Assembly: GCF_900110875.1 (NCBI RefSeq)
Contig: NZ_FOFM01000010.1
Location: 1 to 64,000, forward strand
Length of the DNA: 64,000 bases
Direction of reading: 5' to 3'
Origin: Pseudovibrio axinellae
GTDB taxonomy: Bacteria; Pseudomonadota; Alphaproteobacteria; Rhizobiales; Stappiaceae
The translations under genes were made by a program, and so were the position numbers. The stretch's first letter is position 1. Each line of letters starts with the position of its first letter. The notes under the pieces were generated by a model, which worked only from the letters and a program-made list of their open reading frames with translations, made no database searches and had not been told where the DNA came from. Shown here one piece after another: positions 9,484 to 41,729 of this stretch.

Positions 9484-10356
9484 ATGAAGAGCATACTTTA
9501 CCTGCCTGCAGATAAAACCCATCTTTTTTCCAAGGCAGTCGGGTCCGGTGCCGAGTGTGTGTTGTTCGACTTGGAGGATGGGGTCTGTGATAACGCAAAA
9601 GAAGCAGCACGCGATCAGTTAGCAAACCTCCCACATGGACTTCGCGGCCAAAGTGCTTGCGAGATTGGAGTGCGGATTAGTCCGCTAAGCACCATCGATG
9701 GCATGAAGGACATGCAGTGTTTGATGGAGCTTCCTCAGCTGCCTGAGTGGATCTTTTTGCCAAAGTGCGAAAGCCCGAGAGACTTGGTAGTCCTTCATAA
9801 ATTAGTACATGAACACCCCACGAGAGAACTCGTAAAACTCTGTCCGTACCTTGAAACGCCGTCTGGTATTGCCAACGCAGAAGCGATTGCCTCTGCACCT
9901 GCGCCCTTGTATGCTCTGGCTTTTGGTGAGGTGGACTACTCGTTCTATACAGGTGCTACCATGAGCTGGGAAAGCCTGATATGGCCAAGAGGTATGCTTA
10001 TAAATGCAGCCGTCGAAAACCATTTATGGGCCATCGATGGGGTTTTTCTGGACTTTAACGACCCCGAACATCTTGAAGATGAATCCAAAAGCGCTCGGGA
10101 TATGGGCTTTAATGCCAAGTTTGCCATACACCCGTCGCAGGTCGAGGTTATCAATGCGTGCTTTGAACCTCGTGATGAAGAGGTTCAGTGGGCGCTGGGT
10201 ATCATCCAAAAGCATAAAGAAACCGCAGAAACTGGCCTTTTTATTGTCGATGGAGCCGTCATAGGAACGTCTGCAGTGATGCGCGCGCGCCGAATTTTGG
10301 GGTTGCCAAGCGATCCGCAAATAGCATCAAGACATACTAAAGATGTACCAAAGTAA
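9484..10356 (+). CDS. HpcH/HpaI aldolase/citrate lyase family protein (CitE-like)
   Basis: A 290-residue TIM-barrel lyase. Family motifs: VLFDLEDGV near residues 27-34, LPKCES, YLETPSGI, and AIHPSQVEVI near the C-terminus. The Glu/Asp residues in these motifs bind Mg2+, and the fold cleaves or forms C-C bonds in acyl-CoA or 2-keto acid substrates (CitE, malyl-CoA/beta-methylmalyl-CoA lyase, and stand-alone CitE-like paralogues). No citrate lyase alpha or gamma subunits are adjacent, so it is not part of a classical citrate lyase; a stand-alone malyl-CoA- or citramalyl-CoA-type lyase is more likely. Substrate unresolved. Start ATG with GGAG upstream. Confidence 0.8.
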   Translation: MKSILYLPADKTHLFSKAVGSGAECVLFDLEDGVCDNAKEAARDQLANLPHGLRGQSACEIGVRISPLSTIDGMKDMQCLMELPQLPEWIFLPKCESPRDLVVLHKLVHEHPTRELVKLCPYLETPSGIANAEAIASAPAPLYALAFGEVDYSFYTGATMSWESLIWPRGMLINAAVENHLWAIDGVFLDFNDPEHLEDESKSARDMGFNAKFAIHPSQVEVINACFEPRDEEVQWALGIIQKHKETAETGLFIVDGAVIGTSAVMRARRILGLPSDPQIASRHTKDVPK

Positions 10357-10927: not shown

Positions 10928-12097
10928 TTAGCCAACATTGCGGATCTTGATGTCATGCGTTGAGTTTATGTGTGTTTCGACGGCCTGAGCAATTCGTTGT
11001 GATGCATGCCCATCGCCAAATGGGTTCTTGCGATCTACCTTTGTCTGGTCTGATCGTAAGATGCGTGCGACTTCATCAACAATGGCTTTCTGATTAGTGC
11101 CGACGAGTTTTGCAAAACCACTGGTCAGTGCCTCAGGTCGTTCTGTCGTCTTACGTAAGATCAAGAGCGGCGTTCCAAACTCAGGTGCTTCTTCCTGGAT
11201 GCCGCCGCTGTCTGTGAGGATCAGATCTGCATCGCGTTCCAATGCAATAAGCGTTTCATATGACAGTGGCTCAACAAGATGCACGCGCGGCACTTTCTCG
11301 AGCACTGAGACCACAACATCTTTAACCGCCGGGTTTGGGTGCACTGGTAAAACGACCTGCAGATCAGTATGCGCATTAAGGCTCCGCTTGATAGCATTGC
11401 AAATATTGCGCATGGGTTGACCCCAGTTTTCGCGCCGGTGCGTCGTCACCAAAGCAATTCGCTTTTCGGGGCCCAGAACGCCTTGAAGCTCCGCTAGCTC
11501 GCGCGCCGGCTTAATTTCTCGCGCCAGATGACGCACAGCATCGACAACAGTGTTGCCCGTTGTCAGGATCTTGTCACTGCTTATTCCTTCACGAAGCAAG
11601 TTGTCTCGCGCTATAGATGTTGGTGCAAACATACGATGGCACAGCTGGTCAGCAAGCCGCCGGTTAGCTTCCTCAGGAAAAGGATCATACAAATCCCCGC
11701 TCCGCAAGCCTGCCTCAACATGTCCGACCGCGACTGAGCCGTAAAACGCTGCCAACGCTCCAACAAAGCCTGTTGTGGTATCGCCATGCGTTAAAACGTA
11801 TTCAGGATGATGCTCGCTGATATGTTTGCGTATGCCCTTGAGCAGTTCTCCGGCTTGGTCGGCCAGGTCATGACAACCCTTCGCAATCTTGAGCCAGTTC
11901 AACTGGAGAATGCCAAAACTCTCCAATGCTTGGGCCGCAATTTCGCGATGTTGTCCAGTCATCAGAACATGGGCGTGAAGCGATGGACATTTGGATATTG
12001 CTCGGATGACCGGAGCCATTTTTATGGCCTCAGGGCGTGTGCCAATAATGCACATAACTTTACAGGGACCCATGCCAAGTATTCTTGGTTCTGTCAT
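10928..12097 (-). CDS. wecB: UDP-N-acetylglucosamine 2-epimerase (non-hydrolysing)
   Basis: 389 residues interconverting UDP-GlcNAc and UDP-ManNAc in the cytoplasm. Motifs: GTRPEAIKMAPV (19-30), TGQHREI, HVEAGLRSGD with PFPEEANRR, TGNTVVDAV, TTHRRENWG, and SDSGGI-type LTDSGGIQEEAPEFG with RKTTERPEA. All are canonical, including the allosteric/catalytic Arg/Glu/His residues. It is the last gene of the four-gene minus-strand glycan operon, 19 bases behind the DUF4434 gene. In E. coli, WecB supplies ManNAc precursor for the NfrA/NfrB glycan, so its presence in this operon fits that system and suggests a ManNAc-containing product. Confidence 0.93.
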   Translation of the reverse strand: MTEPRILGMGPCKVMCIIGTRPEAIKMAPVIRAISKCPSLHAHVLMTGQHREIAAQALESFGILQLNWLKIAKGCHDLADQAGELLKGIRKHISEHHPEYVLTHGDTTTGFVGALAAFYGSVAVGHVEAGLRSGDLYDPFPEEANRRLADQLCHRMFAPTSIARDNLLREGISSDKILTTGNTVVDAVRHLAREIKPARELAELQGVLGPEKRIALVTTHRRENWGQPMRNICNAIKRSLNAHTDLQVVLPVHPNPAVKDVVVSVLEKVPRVHLVEPLSYETLIALERDADLILTDSGGIQEEAPEFGTPLLILRKTTERPEALTSGFAKLVGTNQKAIVDEVARILRSDQTKVDRKNPFGDGHASQRIAQAVETHINSTHDIKIRNVG

Positions 12098-12116
12098 GAT
12101 CTTATCACTATCAAGG

Positions 12117-13205
12117 TTATTGTGTTGCGGTCACAGCGGTCCTGAAGATCGACCTACCGCAGGTCTTAGCATTTTTACTTAAGAATTCTTCAATATCACG
12201 ACTGTGTTTATTGTCGTATTTCAGGATATGGCTGGAGAGCGAGAATAAGGCGACCGGCTGATTGGGGTCGAATCGAGCGTTATCCAGTCTGCGTTTCATG
12301 GTGCCTACAGTGGTTGGCATTGTTCTAAAGTCAGGTTTGCGTGGATCAATCTCAAAAATCTCCACAACAGGAATGACCGTATGGCCGTGTTGCTTGAATT
12401 GTGCACTTATGGCACGCTGTAATTTGCGACTGGAATAAGGCTCCATAAGCTTCGCCCCAAGACCATCTTGGAGAAGTAGAACATCCACGAGCGTATTATC
12501 TAAAAGTGTGTCCCAAAGACGTGCCAACTTCTTGGGTTCATGGGTAGAGTTCGTATACCCCGAAATCGAGACCGGCCCTGGAAGAATACGATTGAGTATG
12601 GCCTGCGTTTCCAGCATATACTGCGTCAACAGCTTTCGAAGCTTGTTATCCTGCAAAAGCGCAGCGTCAATCTCATCTGAAATGTACCAGCCTGCAAATA
12701 CCTCACTAGGATTTGCAGCGTAGCTCATCTGAGACTTGAGCGCCGTTGCAATCTGTTTGGTCTCATGAAGACGCGCATCGAGATATGGCTGCCCTTTGTT
12801 TTTAAGGTTCTCAATAAGAGAAGGATCATAGCGCAGCCCGAACCAAATCTTGGCGCCGGCTTGGTCTGCTCCCATAATCGCGGCCTCTACCCACACCGGT
12901 AACGTGATTTCTTTGTTTAAATCAGCGCCCCACATAGTCCACTGCAGGACAACCTCATCAACACCAAGCCTTTGATGTGAAAGGAATTCACTCCTCCATA
13001 GTCGTAGATTAGGAAAATATTCATCACCCCACGGCTGAAGGAAGCTCATGTGTATAGGAATACATTCCTTCTCGCCGAAGTCATAGCGTGCTTGAGCTTT
13101 ATCCATTGATAGGAAAGGTAAAGTTACAAGGAAAGCCACTCCTAAGAGCAACGCTTTAGAAGTTTGCTTGAAGTCCGAGAAGGATACGACTGGTTTGACT
13201 GTCAT
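12117..13205 (-). CDS. periplasmic DUF4434 TIM-barrel protein of the glycan operon
   Basis: 362 residues with a signal peptide (ALLLGVAFLVTLPFLS, probable cleavage AQA/RYD). The mature part begins with a glycosidase-like barrel pattern: SFLQPWGDEYFPNLRLW, LGVDEVVLQWTMWG, WFGLRYDPSL, and GWYISDEID, which resemble DUF4434, a family related to glycoside hydrolases. The acidic pair in YISDEID sits where barrel hydrolases often keep catalytic residues. Its start overlaps the end of the NfrA-like gene by 50 bases, so translation is coupled. In E. coli the third gene of the nfr system (ybcH) also encodes a periplasmic protein; I cannot show homology but the position is analogous. Likely role: trimming or modifying the exported polysaccharide. 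Confidence 0.65.
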   Translation of the reverse strand: MTVKPVVSFSDFKQTSKALLLGVAFLVTLPFLSMDKAQARYDFGEKECIPIHMSFLQPWGDEYFPNLRLWRSEFLSHQRLGVDEVVLQWTMWGADLNKEITLPVWVEAAIMGADQAGAKIWFGLRYDPSLIENLKNKGQPYLDARLHETKQIATALKSQMSYAANPSEVFAGWYISDEIDAALLQDNKLRKLLTQYMLETQAILNRILPGPVSISGYTNSTHEPKKLARLWDTLLDNTLVDVLLLQDGLGAKLMEPYSSRKLQRAISAQFKQHGHTVIPVVEIFEIDPRKPDFRTMPTTVGTMKRRLDNARFDPNQPVALFSLSSHILKYDNKHSRDIEEFLSKNAKTCGRSIFRTAVTATQ

Positions 13206-16200
13206 CGGTGTTCAGTACTTCGTGTCCTACACGCCCAAACAACTCAAGAAAAAGAATGTCACCATAGGTTTCGGTGTACAAAGTCTTCCACTTGAAAGAT
13301 GCTCCCAGCCCTGCTTCGATGGAAACAGCGCTGATAAGGGAGTTCCAGTTTCCGCTGCCAATAGAATACGCAAAAGTTGAGAAAAGCAGGTTAGGATCAA
13401 GCCTAAAAGTGTAACCAAGCCGCCCATCGCCATAAAACAAAATTGTCTTTTCGTTTTCAAAGAAACGCCCAGTTTCAAGATAGAGATGGAGGTAAGGTTC
13501 TTTTTCAATTGGCTCCCCGGTTTCATAATCGTAAAGCGGAAGAAAGTCATGTCCGGTGGTAAAGGACCAGAGCACCCTGCCCAGCCAGTTATCTTCTGTG
13601 AGTTCACCGCCTTCAAAGAAACGCTCCAGCCCCAACTTTAAATTCTGGGTCATAAAGGGTTTGAAGCGTAAGCCAACAATGGATTGGAATGTATCGGGAT
13701 TAGGCCTGAAACTGTAACGATCATTGAGCCACTGCGCGCGGGCAATGACTTCAAAGGTACGGCCATTTTGATAACCGATGACGGGTGGCCGCCAGGCCAC
13801 TTCAACTGTACCAAAGGGGCTGCTGGATGGAATACCCAATATGGCTCCCGTAATATCCTGTTCGTCCTGTCGTGAAGGGCTTATGCCGTCAAAAATAAGG
13901 AAACTGAACGGGATCTCCAAAATCCGAAGCTGACGCCTGAAACGTTCCAGCTTGTCGCGCTCATAAATATCGATCTGCTCTTGGTTCAAAGCCTCAATAC
14001 GCTGGCGAAACAATGCAGCTGCCTTCTTGTTTTCGAACACCGCCATATAAGTGTAGGCAAGGTCCTCCTGAACGTCCGGCTGGTCAGGCTGATATTCCAG
14101 CGAAGCTTCAAAGCGAATGATAGCCAGATCATCGTCATCCAGCGCGCGTGCAAGATACGCACCCAAAGCCAGCGTGGCAGGGTTTTGTTTGTCACGAGGT
14201 GGAAGGCTTTGATATTCAGCTTCGGCCTCCTCAAGTCGGCCGAGTTGGAAAAGGACCTGCACAACAGAAAAACGAATGTCCTCCGTTGTTTCAATGGCGC
14301 GTGCCCTGCGCAAGTCTGATAAGGCCTGCTCAAGAGACTCTGGGCTCTGGTTGTCGTTATGCAGTGTAATCTGCGCACGGGCGGCATAGTAACGGGCCAT
14401 TTGCATGCGCGTTAATGATGCTGGGGTAAGACGCACCAAAATGCGCTGCGCCTCGCCAAACCTCATTTGTTTCAAGTTGATGTAAAGAAGAGCCATACCA
14501 GCGCTCTGGTCGTTGTATTTTTCAAAGCTTTCGCTGAACCATCTTTGCGCTGCTGCATGGTCACCCATTTCCTGACTAAGAAAACCAAGCTGGCTAGCCG
14601 CTGAAGCACTGGGGCTTAGCTCGTAGGCTTTCTCAAGCTGTTCGTGTGCTTTTCTTTTCTCGCCAAGGTTTTGATAGATCCCAGCCAACGTAAGTCGCCT
14701 GACGTGATCGTTGGGGTGTTTGTGGACATCTTGCAGCGCACAGCTCAAAGCTTCCCCATCACGCCTCAATGCACGATAGGCCTCACATTTGATCGCTACT
14801 GTTTGATCGGTCTCATCCAGACTCTCAACAAGAACCAGCGCATCGCCGGGTTGTTTTAGTTCCAATGCAAGATAAGCTGATTCAAGGCGTGTTTCCGGCT
14901 GTGAATCCAGTTGTAAAGCCCTACTATAAACCCGTGATGCCTCGTTGGTTTCTCCACTGGCTTTTAAAATGCGCGCCAATGAAAGAAAAGCGGCTGCATA
15001 CTTGCTCTTACTCTCATCAGATAGATTGTTTGAACTGGCGTAATTTGAGACGTAGTCCAACCACATGTCAGGCGTTACATTCTTTGATGTGCTTTCACGA
15101 AGCATCAGGTAGGCTGGTACAACCAGTGTCGGTTCCGGTTGAACATCCCAGTCTGCAACCAGGTATTTTAACGCATCCTCCCAATCCTCGTTGGCCGCCG
15201 AAACAGCCGCAAGATCAAATAAAAGCCGTGTATAGGCTTTTGTATCGTCATCGCTGAACTGATCAGTTGCACGCGCTTTGGTCGCTTGGTTTAAAGCATC
15301 CACCAATAGAGCAACAGCAGCCTGATTGTCGTTGGAAAGCAGGGCGATCTGCCCCCTTTTGGCAGTAATGCGCCAATTGGGTATCAGCACGCCAGCTTCT
15401 TTCAGCACTTCATTGGCAAGGTCCAAATCCCCTGCCCGCCGCGCAAGATCAGCAAGTGATTGGAGCATCTGAGCCCAAGCCTCCGGGGCTTTTAGGCGCT
15501 CAGCTTCATTCACGAGGGATCTGAGCTCAACAAGGATGCCAACTGCAGCCGTGTCCCAACCATTATTAAGGGCCAGCTTGCTTAAACGAAGACCATATTC
15601 CGGGCTTCTTGTAAGTTCGATAAGCAACCGTGCTGCTTCAAGCGCTCTGGCATCGTCACCAGCACGAATGGAAATATCGGCAAGTGCAAGATAGTAATTG
15701 GCAATCTCTTCGCGACCAGAGGCTTTGGTACTAAGAATCTTACCTTCTGGCGTAAGGAGCGCCATTTCCGCCTCGGCACTGGAACCTTGCTTCACAAGCG
15801 CATAAGCCAACTGAACGCGAGAGGATAGACCCAGCAGCTCAATCTTGCCAGCTTGCAGAAAGTCCAAAAGCTCAGGCAAATGACCGGAATTGAGAGCGCT
15901 GGCAGATAAGGCCCTTGCAAATGTGTGCTGCTCCAAAGCCGTCGCCAGCCGACCAGTGAACAAGCCCTTCCTTTCAGCTCCCATGAGAAGCTGATAAGCC
16001 TCCTCATCCAATCCTTGATTGAGCAGGAGGAACGCCTCATTTAATATGGCTGTTCGTTGGGTCTGAGGTGCGTTTTCAAGTTTTGAGAGCTCTTGCCATT
16101 CTTGGCGTGCTTCATCCAACTGGTTGAGGTTCCGCAGCAAGTCAGCACGTACGAGCCGGTGGCGCGGTGTTCCAGCGCCTGATTCAATGAGAATATTGAG

Positions 16201-16815
16201 CGCCTGCAACGCATCCTGTGTCCGCCCAAGCTTTATGGCGACCTCAGCGGTACCTTCAAGCGCCTGCTCCCGATCAATTTCCAGGAGCTTTCCGGTTTCC
16301 AGTGCCTGTCTGAAGTTTTTTGCTGCCTGCATATACTCGCCAGCCTGAGTATACAACTGAGCGAGCGTGAGATAACCGCGGCTGAAAGCAGGAGCTTGCG
16401 ATTGCAAGGTCTTGAGTTGCTCAACGGCTGTAACAGGCCGGTTAAGCGAAATCAGTAACTGAATTTTTTGCCAACGTGCGACCAAGTGATCCGGATCCCC
16501 TTGCAGCAACTCATCTAATGTCGATAAAGCCTCTTCATTCCTGCCTTCCGCCAACAGACGATAAGCCAGATCCAACAATGGATAAGAGCGGTAGTCACGC
16601 CATGTTTTATTTAAAAAAGACCGACTGTCCTGCTTGTCTTTCAATAAGCTGGCGTAATAGGCATCTTTCTGGGAGGCCGTGTAAGAGTCAGCAGGGTTTT
16701 GCGAAAGCGTTGGAATGGCAAGACCCAGCACAAAAATGCCAATCCATAGGAGATGAAAGGCAGACCTTCCATTGGCCTGCTTTCTAGCTTCATGGGATTT
16801 GCGAAACGGGGTCAT
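13156..16815 (-). CDS. NfrA-like TPR outer-membrane protein
   Basis: 1219 residues. After an N-terminal signal/membrane segment (LLWIGIFVLGLAIPTLS) there is a long superhelix of tetratricopeptide repeats (about 60-950), for example LDELLQGDPDHLVARWQKIQ and LAQLYTQAGEYMQAAKNF. The last ~260 residues are beta-rich and match what I know of the NfrA C-terminal domain: FGTVEVAWRPPVIGYQNGR, GLRFKPF, NLKLGLERFF, ending in LLGLQANF with a terminal Phe typical of barrels. This architecture, TPR solenoid plus outer-membrane barrel, is that of polysaccharide exporters (NfrA, BcsC, PgaA). It is longer than E. coli NfrA (about 990). The start overlaps the end of the NfrB-like gene by four bases (ATGA), showing translational coupling. 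Confidence 0.8.
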   Translation of the reverse strand: MTPFRKSHEARKQANGRSAFHLLWIGIFVLGLAIPTLSQNPADSYTASQKDAYYASLLKDKQDSRSFLNKTWRDYRSYPLLDLAYRLLAEGRNEEALSTLDELLQGDPDHLVARWQKIQLLISLNRPVTAVEQLKTLQSQAPAFSRGYLTLAQLYTQAGEYMQAAKNFRQALETGKLLEIDREQALEGTAEVAIKLGRTQDALQALNILIESGAGTPRHRLVRADLLRNLNQLDEARQEWQELSKLENAPQTQRTAILNEAFLLLNQGLDEEAYQLLMGAERKGLFTGRLATALEQHTFARALSASALNSGHLPELLDFLQAGKIELLGLSSRVQLAYALVKQGSSAEAEMALLTPEGKILSTKASGREEIANYYLALADISIRAGDDARALEAARLLIELTRSPEYGLRLSKLALNNGWDTAAVGILVELRSLVNEAERLKAPEAWAQMLQSLADLARRAGDLDLANEVLKEAGVLIPNWRITAKRGQIALLSNDNQAAVALLVDALNQATKARATDQFSDDDTKAYTRLLFDLAAVSAANEDWEDALKYLVADWDVQPEPTLVVPAYLMLRESTSKNVTPDMWLDYVSNYASSNNLSDESKSKYAAAFLSLARILKASGETNEASRVYSRALQLDSQPETRLESAYLALELKQPGDALVLVESLDETDQTVAIKCEAYRALRRDGEALSCALQDVHKHPNDHVRRLTLAGIYQNLGEKRKAHEQLEKAYELSPSASAASQLGFLSQEMGDHAAAQRWFSESFEKYNDQSAGMALLYINLKQMRFGEAQRILVRLTPASLTRMQMARYYAARAQITLHNDNQSPESLEQALSDLRRARAIETTEDIRFSVVQVLFQLGRLEEAEAEYQSLPPRDKQNPATLALGAYLARALDDDDLAIIRFEASLEYQPDQPDVQEDLAYTYMAVFENKKAAALFRQRIEALNQEQIDIYERDKLERFRRQLRILEIPFSFLIFDGISPSRQDEQDITGAILGIPSSSPFGTVEVAWRPPVIGYQNGRTFEVIARAQWLNDRYSFRPNPDTFQSIVGLRFKPFMTQNLKLGLERFFEGGELTEDNWLGRVLWSFTTGHDFLPLYDYETGEPIEKEPYLHLYLETGRFFENEKTILFYGDGRLGYTFRLDPNLLFSTFAYSIGSGNWNSLISAVSIEAGLGASFKWKTLYTETYGDILFLELFGRVGHEVLNTDDSQTSRILLGLQANF

Positions 16816-18278
16816 TGGTGCGGATCATTCTTTCCAGTTTTGGATGGCGAACTGTTGTTATGCGGATAGTCATGCGCGGTTTTATCCCAACCGATGACAT
16901 CGCCGGTAATCAGGTGCCTGATCCAGGTTTTACTCGCTCGTATCATGGCGAAATAATTGATTGTGATGGAGACGAAGTAGCGCACAGTGACTGGAAGTAA
17001 CGCCCGAAATCCATAATGATATCCGGTCCAGATATGACGCTGAATAAGTCGGTGAAGGATAAGGATTAGGTTGAACCAGATAACATACCAAAACGGACTG
17101 TTCTCAGGCAGCAAAGGAGGCAAATTGTAGGCATCAGGAGCAAGGCGCTGGTAAAGACTAAGACCCCAGTAAAAGATCAATGCGATGTAGCCGATAACGA
17201 TGGCGTGGCTAAAGAAAACCATTTTTCTGTCGCGCCAATAGAAGTATTTATCAGCGATTTTTCCCTTCCAACCTAATTGCGCCCAGCCTTGAAACGCAAT
17301 GCCGATCGTCCAGCGCGTCTTCTGGCGCACACTGCGCCAGTACCTGGAGGGAAACAGCTCTTGCGTGACAGCAAAGCTGGTGTATTCATTCTTCTTGGAT
17401 GGATGGACCCAGAGCAGGCGATGTGTGAGCCCCTTGCCTGCAAGCCGCATGGCCAGATCATAATCTTCGGTCAATGAACCCGTATTAAAGATCTCATGAA
17501 TACCGTTTTCATCCACTTCACAAATGGATTTTGCGGTTTCTAGTGTTTTTCTGGAATAACAAGTCCCCACGCCCGCGCCAGGCACTGTCCCGGTCAAAGC
17601 GCCTCGTACAAGCACTTCCTTGGAGTGGAACTCAGCAAATTCATCCATGTAATGGCCAGCCGTGAACTGAAGGCCCCTTCTGGGTAACGACAGTACGGGA
17701 AGCTGAACCACATCGGCCAGCTCAAGGCTGGCATTGAAAACGCGCAGCGCATTGGGATTGAGAATATCCTCCGCGTCTTGCATCACAAAACCAGCAAAAG
17801 AGATATCTTGTTCGTGTTCAAACGTTTCGATCGCAGCAAGAATTGTGTTCACACAATCTGCTTTACAGGTTGGCCCTTCATCTTGGGTGACGACGACACG
17901 CAGGTTGTCATGTTCCGCAGCAAGCTTATTGGCGGCTTGAACTGTTGCTTCGTCATTGGGGTAAACGCCGATAAAGACCCAGTAGTTGGGGTAATCCAGC
18001 TGAGACATAATATCTGTAACAGCTGGGTAAAGAATTTCGGCCTCATCCCAAGCCGGCATCATGATGGCAAGTGGTTTTGGGTCTGGCTCGCCAGCTTCTT
18101 CAAAGATAGCTTCTTCCGTTATCCCGGCCATCGGCCCGCGATACCAAGCAACAAAAAAGTAATAGAGCGTATCGACAAATAGGTCGTCTGCGCCTGAAAC
18201 AGCAAAGACGTAAGATGCGACAAGAAAAAGGCTCTGGGTAATGAGAAATAGCAGTACAAATGCGTCTGTTACTAACAT
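16812..18278 (-). CDS. NfrB-like inner-membrane family 2 glycosyltransferase
   Basis: About 488 residues. One N-terminal membrane span (VLLFLITQSLFLVASYVFA), a GT2 domain with MQDAEDI (DxD-type), LTEDYDL (catalytic base region) and RQKTRWTIG (QxxRW-like motif), then three or more C-terminal spans. The stretches VQLPVLSLPRRG, TAGHYMDEFAEFHSKE and VPGAGVGTCYSR closely resemble NfrB. E. coli NfrB is about 745 residues and carries a C-terminal c-di-GMP-binding MshEN module; this protein ends soon after the last membrane span and lacks it. The first possible start is GTG 18290; ATG 18278 is preferred, though neither has a strong ribosome site. First gene of the glycan operon. Confidence 0.82.
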   Translation of the reverse strand: MLVTDAFVLLFLITQSLFLVASYVFAVSGADDLFVDTLYYFFVAWYRGPMAGITEEAIFEEAGEPDPKPLAIMMPAWDEAEILYPAVTDIMSQLDYPNYWVFIGVYPNDEATVQAANKLAAEHDNLRVVVTQDEGPTCKADCVNTILAAIETFEHEQDISFAGFVMQDAEDILNPNALRVFNASLELADVVQLPVLSLPRRGLQFTAGHYMDEFAEFHSKEVLVRGALTGTVPGAGVGTCYSRKTLETAKSICEVDENGIHEIFNTGSLTEDYDLAMRLAGKGLTHRLLWVHPSKKNEYTSFAVTQELFPSRYWRSVRQKTRWTIGIAFQGWAQLGWKGKIADKYFYWRDRKMVFFSHAIVIGYIALIFYWGLSLYQRLAPDAYNLPPLLPENSPFWYVIWFNLILILHRLIQRHIWTGYHYGFRALLPVTVRYFVSITINYFAMIRASKTWIRHLITGDVIGWDKTAHDYPHNNSSPSKTGKNDPHQ

Positions 18279-18395
18279 TCTCGCGTGCACCTTTTCGCAG
18301 GAACTCCAATAGAGTAACCCTAGGTGATTCGATCAGTCGTTCTCATTCACGGAATGTTCTGAAGGGTTTAGCGCGAGACACTTTTACCATTGCAG

Positions 18396-18450: not shown

Positions 18451-19593
18451 TTATGCCAAAACCTGCTTCTCCTGCATATGTTTGATATCGTCGAGCGTAA
18501 ATCCAAGCTCTTGTAAAACTTGTGAATTATGCTCTCCGGTGCGATTTGCTGGTGACGGCGTATCTGGTTGGCTGCGGCTAAACCGTGGAGCAGGCGCTGC
18601 CTGTGTGATGCCGTTAAGCCGGATCCGGTTGCCACGTTCAGTGTTAAGCGCAGCAGCATTTGCCTCTTCAATGGACAAAACGGGCGCAACACATGCATCC
18701 GTCCCCACAAACACTGCACTCCAGTGGTCTAGAGTTTTGGCCTTAATTGCATTGCCTATGGCCTCTTCCAGAGCGGGCCACTCCTGCCTGTTCATCTGCT
18801 TTCTGGAAAACTCTGCGGGCAAGCAGAGCCCCTCCAGCAGAAGCGCAAAGAACTGAGGTTCCAGTGCCCCTACAGAAAGATAGCGCCCGTCAGACGTCTC
18901 ATAGCAGCGATAAAACGGAGCGCCGCCATCGAGCAGGTTGTCCTGGCGTTTGTCCTGCCACAAACCGCTGCCAAGCATAGAGTAGATCAACCCCAGCATA
19001 GCTGGAACACCGTCAACCATAGCCGCGTCAATCACCTGCCCTTTGCCGCTTTGTGAGCGCTCAAACAACGCTGAAAGCACCCCTAGAAGCAGGAACATAG
19101 ACCCACCGCCATAGTCCGCTGCAATGTTGAGCGGCGGTACCGGCGCACGCCCGGCTTCACCAATGGCGTGCAACATCCCGGTCATGGCAAGGTAGTTCAG
19201 GTCATGGCCTGCGCAATGCGAGAGAGGACCCTCCTGCCCCCAACCTGTCATACGTCCATAAATCAGCCGAGGGTTTTTCTGGAGGCAGACATCAGGCCCA
19301 AGCCCAAGGCGCTCCATAACCCCAGGGCGAAAGCCCTCAAGTAAAATATCCGCGTTCGTGATCAGCGAGAAGAAGACCTTCACAGCCTCCTCATTCTTCA
19401 TATTCAAGGCGATTGACTTTTTGCCTCTACGATTGACATCCTTGTCAATCCGCTCACCTGCTCGCTTGTCAATCACTGTGACATGCGCGCCCAGGTCTGC
19501 TAGCAACTGACCAGCCATAGGCGCAGGACCTAAACCAGTCATCTCTACCACTTGTAACCCGACCAATGGTCCTGATTTTTGTGCTGCAGACAC
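18451..19593 (-). CDS. CaiB/BaiF CoA-transferase family, alpha-methylacyl-CoA racemase-like
   Basis: 380 residues of the family III CoA-transferase fold. The N-terminal EMTGLGPAPMAGQLLADLGA block is typical. AGHDLNYLAMTG and NIAADYGGG carry the His and Asp used by alpha-methylacyl-CoA racemases, which favours racemase over formyl-CoA-type transferase activity. Racemases swap the 2-methyl configuration of acyl-CoAs so that they can enter beta-oxidation. I chose GTG 19593, five bases after GGGAGG; a further GTG at 19599 overlaps the ribosome site. It follows the catabolic operon on the same strand after a 243-base gap, so it may be expressed separately; a role in the same pathway is possible but unproven. 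Confidence 0.8.
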   Translation of the reverse strand: MSAAQKSGPLVGLQVVEMTGLGPAPMAGQLLADLGAHVTVIDKRAGERIDKDVNRRGKKSIALNMKNEEAVKVFFSLITNADILLEGFRPGVMERLGLGPDVCLQKNPRLIYGRMTGWGQEGPLSHCAGHDLNYLAMTGMLHAIGEAGRAPVPPLNIAADYGGGSMFLLLGVLSALFERSQSGKGQVIDAAMVDGVPAMLGLIYSMLGSGLWQDKRQDNLLDGGAPFYRCYETSDGRYLSVGALEPQFFALLLEGLCLPAEFSRKQMNRQEWPALEEAIGNAIKAKTLDHWSAVFVGTDACVAPVLSIEEANAAALNTERGNRIRLNGITQAAPAPRFSRSQPDTPSPANRTGEHNSQVLQELGFTLDDIKHMQEKQVLA

Positions 19594-19836
19594 ATGCACC
19601 TCCCATACACCTTATCCAAACACGGTGCAGCAGGATGACCTGCTGACCGTAGCGTTGACTAACTCTAGAGTGGCAAGGGCTAAGCCCACAATTCTCCATT
19701 TGGTGAATGGGTTGTCCAATAGGTCAAGAATACGGTGGCAAGTCCGCTCAAAAAAACGCAGCTATAACCTAAAAAACGCAAACCAGCGCAAAAGCAACTC
19801 AAACCGTTATATGTGATAGATGTCAGTGGCTTAAGT

Positions 19837-41639: not shown

Positions 41640-41729
41640 GGAGGGGTGGCAGAGTGGTCGAATGCACCGGTCTTGAAAACCGGCGAGCGTGTAAGCGTTC
41701 CGTGGGTTCGAATCCCACCCCCTCCGCCA
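41640..41729 (+). tRNA. tRNA-Ser (anticodon UGA)
   Basis: A 90-base class II tRNA. Acceptor GGAGGGG pairs with CCCCTCC; D-arm GCAGAGTGGTCGAATGC; anticodon stem CCGGT/ACCGG with loop CTTGAAA, anticodon TGA; long variable arm GAGCGTGTAAGCGTTC; T-arm GTGGG-TTCGAAT-CCCAC; discriminator G and encoded CCA (41727-41729). It reads UCA/UCG-type serine codons. Its 3' end faces the prophage, the classic arrangement for integration into a tRNA gene. Confidence 0.97.

Follow-up and report, generated by a model that had tools for sequence, protein, structure and literature searches.

An Nfr-type exopolysaccharide operon of Pseudovibrio axinellae with its own wecB and an NfrB synthase that lacks MshEN

Introduction

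The phage N4 glycan receptor (NGR) pathway of Escherichia coli K-12 (MG1655) is encoded by nfrB-nfrA-ybcH together with wecB. It yields a polymer of uncharacterised chemistry that is found at the cell surface and serves as a receptor for phage. According to the available parts of two reports (PMC8669469, PMC8669472; both are cited below to that extent), NfrA, NfrB and WecB are required for infection of E. coli by N4, WecC and YbcH are not, and a polymer derived from uridine diphosphate N-acetylmannosamine (UDP-ManNAc) was proposed. The same part of PMC8669469 gives 1,841 or 1,842 NfrB homologs, 1,705 of them with MshEN, a sensor of cyclic di-GMP (c-di-GMP), describes NfrB as occasional in alphaproteobacteria and reports, in 2021, the linkage of wecB to nfr genes; a cluster of nfrA, nfrB and wecB in Achromobacter is described in PMC8669472. 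The subject of the present analysis is a four-gene operon in a 64,000-nucleotide (64-kb) stretch of Pseudovibrio axinellae DNA (contig NZ_FOFM01000010.1, positions 1 to 64,000; hereafter 'the window'). It is a member of the known Nfr system, in a variant whose NfrB has no c-di-GMP sensor and whose linked wecB is the only such gene found in the genome.

An initial annotation, made from the letters of the window, had pointed to all parts of the pathway lying together in one operon. They do, as an instance of a pattern already in print in both reports. Likewise, the proposed dedicated exopolysaccharide of an alphaproteobacterium stands as an Nfr-type operon with its own wecB, while alphaproteobacterial NfrB itself had been published (PMC8669469). 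What is added here is the MshEN-less NfrB of the genus, the sole linked WecB and DUF4434 as a predicted hydrolase.

Results and discussion

Gene content of the operon and proposed pathway

Four open reading frames (ORFs), nfrB, nfrA, a DUF4434 gene and wecB, form a compact, coupled set on the minus strand (Table 1). The first two overlap by 4 bases (16812-16815), nfrA and the DUF4434 gene by 50 bases (13156-13205), and 19 bases (12098-12116) separate the DUF4434 gene from wecB. The ORF coordinates thus bear out the layout given in the initial annotation, and Pfam and NCBIfam profiles the identities it gave: an NfrB-like glycosyltransferase of family 2 (GT2), an NfrA-like protein with tetratricopeptide repeats (TPRs) and a barrel, a DUF4434 protein and an epimerase acting on UDP-N-acetylglucosamine (UDP-GlcNAc). 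Families, order, the single strand and intact GT2 motifs are shared with nfrB-nfrA-ybcH of E. coli. The DUF4434 gene is not an addition to this set: E. coli YbcH is itself a DUF4434 protein and its gene holds the same position after nfrA. The window differs from the E. coli pathway in having wecB inside the operon, in an NfrB of 488 amino acids (aa) that ends before MshEN (745 aa in E. coli) and in an NfrA of 1219 aa (990 in E. coli).

The four-gene set very likely directs the synthesis and export of a cell-surface glycan that resembles the N4 receptor of E. coli. We hold with good confidence that it is a complete, synthase-dependent exopolysaccharide operon of the Nfr type, with an NfrB that lacks MshEN, and that it works along the following lines. 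WecB would convert UDP-GlcNAc to UDP-ManNAc. NfrB, an inner-membrane GT2 of the processive type, would polymerise the sugar, probably ManNAc and possibly a mixture, and pass the chain to the periplasm, where DUF4434/YbcH, seated on the NfrA TPRs as its scaffold, would act as a glycoside hydrolase that trims or proofreads the chain before export through the NfrA barrel. Control would probably be transcriptional or exerted through the supply of UDP-ManNAc, which the operon wecB would couple to the synthase.

A more far-reaching proposal is advanced tentatively, and is itself somewhat doubtful: that loss of MshEN, in Pseudovibrio and independently in several other lineages, has freed the Nfr pathway from direct c-di-GMP control, that the synthase is instead tied to the substrate supplied by a sole wecB carried in the operon, and that DUF4434/YbcH is an unrecognised glycoside hydrolase family for which the TPRs of NfrA are the scaffold and the Nfr polymer is the chain to be trimmed.

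NfrB and its missing sensor domain

NfrB matched PF13641 (4.6e-29, Pfam) and the NCBIfam models PRK15489 (9.4e-128, model positions 19-484 of 703) and PRK11234 (NfrB; 6.4e-116, positions 7-479 of 723). Both NCBIfam matches stop at the first two thirds of the model and fall below its cut-off, for PRK11234 the equivalog cut-off, because the C-terminal third of the protein is missing. The GT2 motifs DxD, TED and QxxRW are intact. Among 70 NfrB sequences (E. coli, the window, six from a survey of the order and 62 loci), D169, E266, D267, Q326, R329 and W330 (E. coli numbering) are identical in all 70, and T265 in 69. An AlphaFold model from 35 sequences (predicted local distance difference test, pLDDT, 92.2) fits a membrane-embedded polymerising GT2. 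Its nearest solved folds are bacterial cellulose synthase (BcsA), an archaeal mannosyltransferase and hyaluronan synthases, at 12-16% identity, and sequence searches of solved structures with NfrB and with its alignment gave nothing at E 0.01.

The window NfrB ends 24 residues past the first residue of the WDKT motif (W464 of 488, in the stretch WDKTAHDYP), whereas its MshEN-bearing relatives continue past WDKTxH into the sensor. MshEN had no match in the window's genome at E 0.001. The absence of this feature from NfrB is a real difference from the typical Nfr system; it is no bar to membership, because some published NfrB homologs also lack MshEN. Operons with a linked wecB from Pseudomonas soli (PMC8669469), Haematospirillum and Geobacter combine the same genes, wecB either preceding or following the others, and loci of these types carry MshEN (L020, L021, L035).

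MshEN was likewise absent from NfrB in all 12 genus genomes with a full-length NfrB match, where the NfrB frames measure 486-542 codons from stop to stop, the 542-codon frame (G680) having an internal TGA. Two of the 16 genus genomes contain MshEN matches, in frames of 568-570 aa: G680, on another contig than nfrB, and G688, which has no NfrB match. At a 60-bit cut, 42 of the 70 NfrB sequences carry MshEN and 28 do not (the window and 27 of the other 69); in the 24 of the 62 loci without MshEN, no stop-to-stop frame of at least 60 aa encodes it elsewhere. On a tree of the GT part of all 70, the MshEN label needs at least eight changes, at least six of them by well-supported branches, although this is a quick tree in which several MshEN-less rows are long branches and the change counts cannot separate gain from loss. 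A supported group of 15 rows holds the Pseudovibrio clade together with four rows that carry MshEN (two Haematospirillum, L022 and L062) and two further rows that lack it (L019 and L023). We read this pattern as suggesting that MshEN was lost repeatedly across the NfrB family.

Two closely related NfrB sequences from metagenomes, L039:739-2265 and L057:7908-9401, differ by the MshEN segment and keep a similar C-terminal tail; the difference looks like a clean deletion of the sensor.

With no MshEN on NfrB, direct switching by c-di-GMP through that domain is absent. The genome does hold nine GGDEF matches and three PilZ matches, the latter in two frames, which leaves room for indirect control and is a point against a pathway freed from c-di-GMP. 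Regulation could thus be kept through another receptor, such as a PilZ protein or a partner of NfrB, the absence of MshEN then having little consequence. This we consider unlikely, since none of the GGDEF or PilZ matches lies on the window's contig, Pfam at E 0.001 found no c-di-GMP-binding family in the four operon proteins, and the genome gave no MshEN match. Most pseudomonads have a linked GGDEF protein according to the available part of PMC8669469; the window operon has none. With a synthase that lacks the sensor and, in this genome, a single WecB inside the operon, Pseudovibrio may yield the polymer more readily than E. coli does.

DUF4434/YbcH as a predicted glycoside hydrolase

The DUF4434 protein matched PF14488 (4.5e-26, 92.5 bits, Pfam) and was matched at 1e-13 with E. 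coli YbcH as the phmmer query; by eye it has an N-terminal hydrophobic segment. The Pfam scan matched PF14488 in 20 of 22 DUF4434 proteins. In a model from 22 sequences (pLDDT 86.9, predicted TM-score 0.82), strands at residues 51-56, 84-87, 119-123, 170-180, 212-217, 242-246, 276-282 and 318-321, beside two short ones, can be read as a (beta/alpha)8 or TIM barrel. In the model, strand 4 carries E178 close to its end, two residues short of where DSSP closes the strand, and strand 7 ends at E282. In enzymes of clan GH-A the catalytic pair stands at strands 4 and 7. Among 24 aligned sequences, E. coli YbcH included, E178 is invariant and E282 is present in 23, the exception (L018) breaking off with its contig short of that position. 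With this predicted TIM barrel and its two conserved glutamates, DUF4434/YbcH is probably a glycoside hydrolase. If so, it would be a tool to cut and help identify the Nfr glycan, and would explain a gene without an assigned function.

The best profile match and, among the matches listed, the nearest solved fold is 4h41 (Bacteroides BT_0435) at 16% identity, whose sequence aligns through the GWYISxE stretch and whose name, alpha-L-fucosidase, is the depositors' 'putative' one. To our knowledge BT_0435 has no role in exopolysaccharides. Behind it in the matches listed stand galactanase, family 1, GH5, GH164 and GH10 enzymes, with some non-glycosidase TIM barrels between them. In the paper collection searched, no paper was found on DUF4434 or on YbcH as a glycoside hydrolase, and the phage collection held no DUF4434 relatives at E 0.01.

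DUF4434/YbcH might instead be a catalytically dead, sugar-binding scaffold. Junkermeier and Hengge, in the available part of PMC8669469, name YbcH a putative scaffold protein that is dispensable for N4, and DUF4434 was not found in 40 of the 62 loci; the conservation of both glutamates, with a truncated sequence as the single exception, and their modelled place at the site of the clan GH-A pair speak for catalysis and make a dead scaffold doubtful.

A predicted hydrolase in such an operon has parallels. Hydrolases within exopolysaccharide operons (BcsZ, PslG, PgaB) are called an emerging trend in the accessible part of PMC5933820. PgaABCD, which makes poly-N-acetylglucosamine (PNAG), and other synthase-dependent systems likewise have a GT2 synthase, a periplasmic hydrolase-like protein and an exporter with TPRs and a barrel. 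In that system PgaB is bound by the TPR region of PgaA, and hydrolase activity is higher in the complex (PMC9384988, from the portion available). The pairing of NfrA and DUF4434 recalls PgaA and PgaB by analogy, although PgaABCD consists of other families and Pfam found no deacetylase domain in the four proteins of the window.

NfrA and its pairing with DUF4434

NfrA matched PF13283 (NfrA_C; 1.9e-8, 34.5 bits against a cut-off of 25) and many TPR models in Pfam. It has an N-terminus that is signal-like by eye, a TPR region, the NfrA_C barrel region and a C-terminal Phe, and by these profiles it is the outer-membrane protein with TPRs and NfrA_C expected of an Nfr system.

An NfrA frame of at least 989 aa is present in 19 of the 22 loci with DUF4434; in the other three, NfrA is broken (L012), split (L037) or without a match (L050). 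None of the 29 loci with NfrA and without DUF4434 reaches 989 aa; their longest frame is a fused one of 934 aa, and some are cut by the locus end. DUF4434 thus appears to go with the long form of NfrA, as plain counts across loci that are related by shared descent.

In an alphaproteobacterial metagenome-assembled genome (MAG), NfrB and NfrA share one open frame of 919 aa (L044:7914-10673), in which a hydrophobic stretch, signal-like by eye, separates the GT2 part from the TPR/barrel part; the two genes may be naturally fused, or the assembly may be wrong there. The nfrA and DUF4434 genes of Pseudovibrio denitrificans JCM 12308 (L012:9463-14206) are each broken over two frames, possibly through draft errors or decay.

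WecB and the identity of the polymer

WecB matched PF02350 (3.1e-104, Pfam) and TIGR00236 (wecB; 425 bits against a cut-off of 210). It aligns with the solved epimerase 1vgv at about 1e-98, the Lys of GTRPEAIKMAP falling on K15 of 1vgv; K15A inactivates E. coli WecB (PMC8669472). The genome holds two Epimerase_2 proteins. The second scores 340.6 bits for NeuC_NnaA and 66.4 for wecB and is thus NeuC-type, which leaves the operon gene as the sole WecB-type copy found in the genome. According to the available part of PMC8669469, a linked wecB directly adjoins in every organism with nfrB that was found without another wecB, and this genome follows that rule.

The NeuC-type epimerase (L003:1396-2586, on contig C82 of the genome) stands next to a frame that by eye resembles sialic acid synthase, which suggests a second, sialic-acid-like surface sugar pathway.

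The polymer could be a different one: UDP-ManNAc might be converted further, for example to N-acetylmannosaminuronic acid (ManNAcA), or enter a mixed chain, or NfrB might use UDP-GlcNAc while WecB serves another glycan. The fold matches of NfrB, at 12-16% identity, leave the substrate unfixed, and in P. hongkongensis (L017) the 16.6 kb around nfrB, nfrA and DUF4434 contain no WecB, the genome whose NfrB coordinates agree with it (G683) having WecB on another contig. On the other side, the one WecB-type gene that was found in the genome is coupled to the operon, a WecC-like dehydrogenase is not among the four gene products, and deletion of wecB blocks N4 in E. coli while deletion of wecC does not (PMC8669469, in the part available). 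A different polymer is accordingly rated as improbable. A cellulose (Bcs) or PNAG (Pga) operon was ruled out, the profile search placing the GT2 and the NfrA C-terminal domain with NfrB and NfrA_C and not with Pga or Bcs families, as the initial annotation had it, and the fold match of NfrB to BcsA being distant (13-15% identity).

Distribution and co-occurrence

NfrB was found at E 1e-30 or better in 7 of 297 genomes of the order and NfrA_C in 13 of 385 of the class, the window's genome counted in both; none of the 11 genomes listed from other genera of the family has NfrB. The 16 genus genomes, again with the window's, comprise 12 with full-length NfrB, one with a fragment (G689) and three with none. 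DUF4434 lies beside NfrB on the same contig in all 12, in two pieces in G680, and WecB lies beside it in 10. Among the four genomes without full-length NfrB, an Epimerase_2 match is absent from G688 and G689 and present in G690 and G691. The G689 fragment (C6:43210-43563) covers just the first 118 NfrB residues, inside an open frame of 1335 codons. Across the 62 loci, NfrA_C was found in 50, WecB in 38, MshEN in 38 and DUF4434 in 22, counts that are lower bounds because flanks are cut in several. The co-occurrence of nfrB, nfrA, DUF4434 and wecB that had been expected was thus seen both in the genus and beyond it.

Outside Pseudovibrio, the MshEN-less four-gene set was found in Desulfogranum japonicum (L019) and an Elusimicrobiaceae MAG (L054). 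The 15-row group of the NfrB tree contains, besides Pseudovibrio, sequences of Haematospirillum, Desulfogranum, a Rhodospirillaceae MAG and two MAGs of gammaproteobacteria; because of this grouping, the patchy spread still allows an older transfer.

Several observations weigh against the proposed pathway or its parts. WecB is on another contig in two of the 12 genus genomes. In one (G682), the coordinates agree with L018, whose contig breaks off within DUF4434, so WecB may or may not adjoin the operon there; in the other (G683) they agree with L017, where 3 kb beyond DUF4434 contain no WecB. Of the 62 loci, several of them cut, 24 have no WecB, 40 no DUF4434 and 12 no NfrA_C. Two loci of the same order (L076, L077) have a distant NfrB-like GT2 of about 460 aa beside WecB and no NfrA within 16 kb; they perhaps represent a different GT2 system that uses ManNAc, and a third such genome (L010) was examined across 3.5 kb. 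Three others of the order (L075, L078, L079) combine DUF4434 with NfrA frames of 767-801 aa. DUF4434 is also wider than Nfr: of 14 control genomes, those of Bacteroides ihuae and Thermotoga maritima gave a match as well as that of E. coli. Past 4h41, the fold matches of the protein are TIM barrels of a generic kind, non-glycosidases included, and the 50 listed have query-length TM-scores of 0.38-0.56. N4 can infect E. coli without YbcH (PMC8669469, as far as available), and both reports, in the parts available, call the chemistry of the Nfr polymer uncharacterised, so that its identity as ManNAc rests on E. coli genetics.

Genomic neighbourhood

The operon lies in a genome of 5.13 Mb, between a gene for a CoA-transferase upstream of nfrB and one of an aldolase family downstream of wecB, so the four-gene set is bounded by unrelated genes.

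Table 1. Features of the operon and its surroundings in the window
Feature	Position	Strand	Length	Basis
nfrB-like GT2 polysaccharide synthase	16812-18278	-	488 aa from ATG	PF13641, NCBIfam NfrB models, motifs
nfrA-like outer-membrane exporter	13156-16815	-	1219 aa	PF13283 and TPR models
ybcH-like DUF4434 protein	12117-13205	-	362 aa	PF14488, phmmer with E. coli YbcH
wecB, non-hydrolysing UDP-GlcNAc 2-epimerase	10928-12097	-	389 aa	PF02350, TIGR00236
CoA-transferase family III gene	18451-19599	-		Pfam
HpcH/HpaI aldolase family gene	9484-10356	+		Pfam
tRNA (single)	41640-41726			Rfam

Recent import showed no sign in base composition, the GC content of the operon being 0.496 against a mean of 0.494 (standard deviation 0.012) for windows of the same size. 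A plasmid search gave NfrB relatives on 27 records, some of them chromosome-sized. Promoter-like sites were at chance (8 found, 9.3 expected); terminator-like sites were above chance overall (15 against 9.1), with just weak ones directly past wecB, and neither was used as evidence. The initial annotation had also raised a possible role as phage receptor; no lead to an N4-like phage of Pseudovibrio was among the literature matches listed, from the one search made on the point.

The nearest named relatives of nfrB are from Pseudovibrio species, at 55-83% identity (eight loci). The 50-base overlap of nfrA and the DUF4434 gene recurs in six of these eight loci (L011-L015 and L017, with both genes broken in L012); in L016 and L018 it measures 71 and 74 bases with mechanical starts. 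For the nfrB of the window, there is an in-frame GTG at 18290, 12 bases upstream of the ATG.

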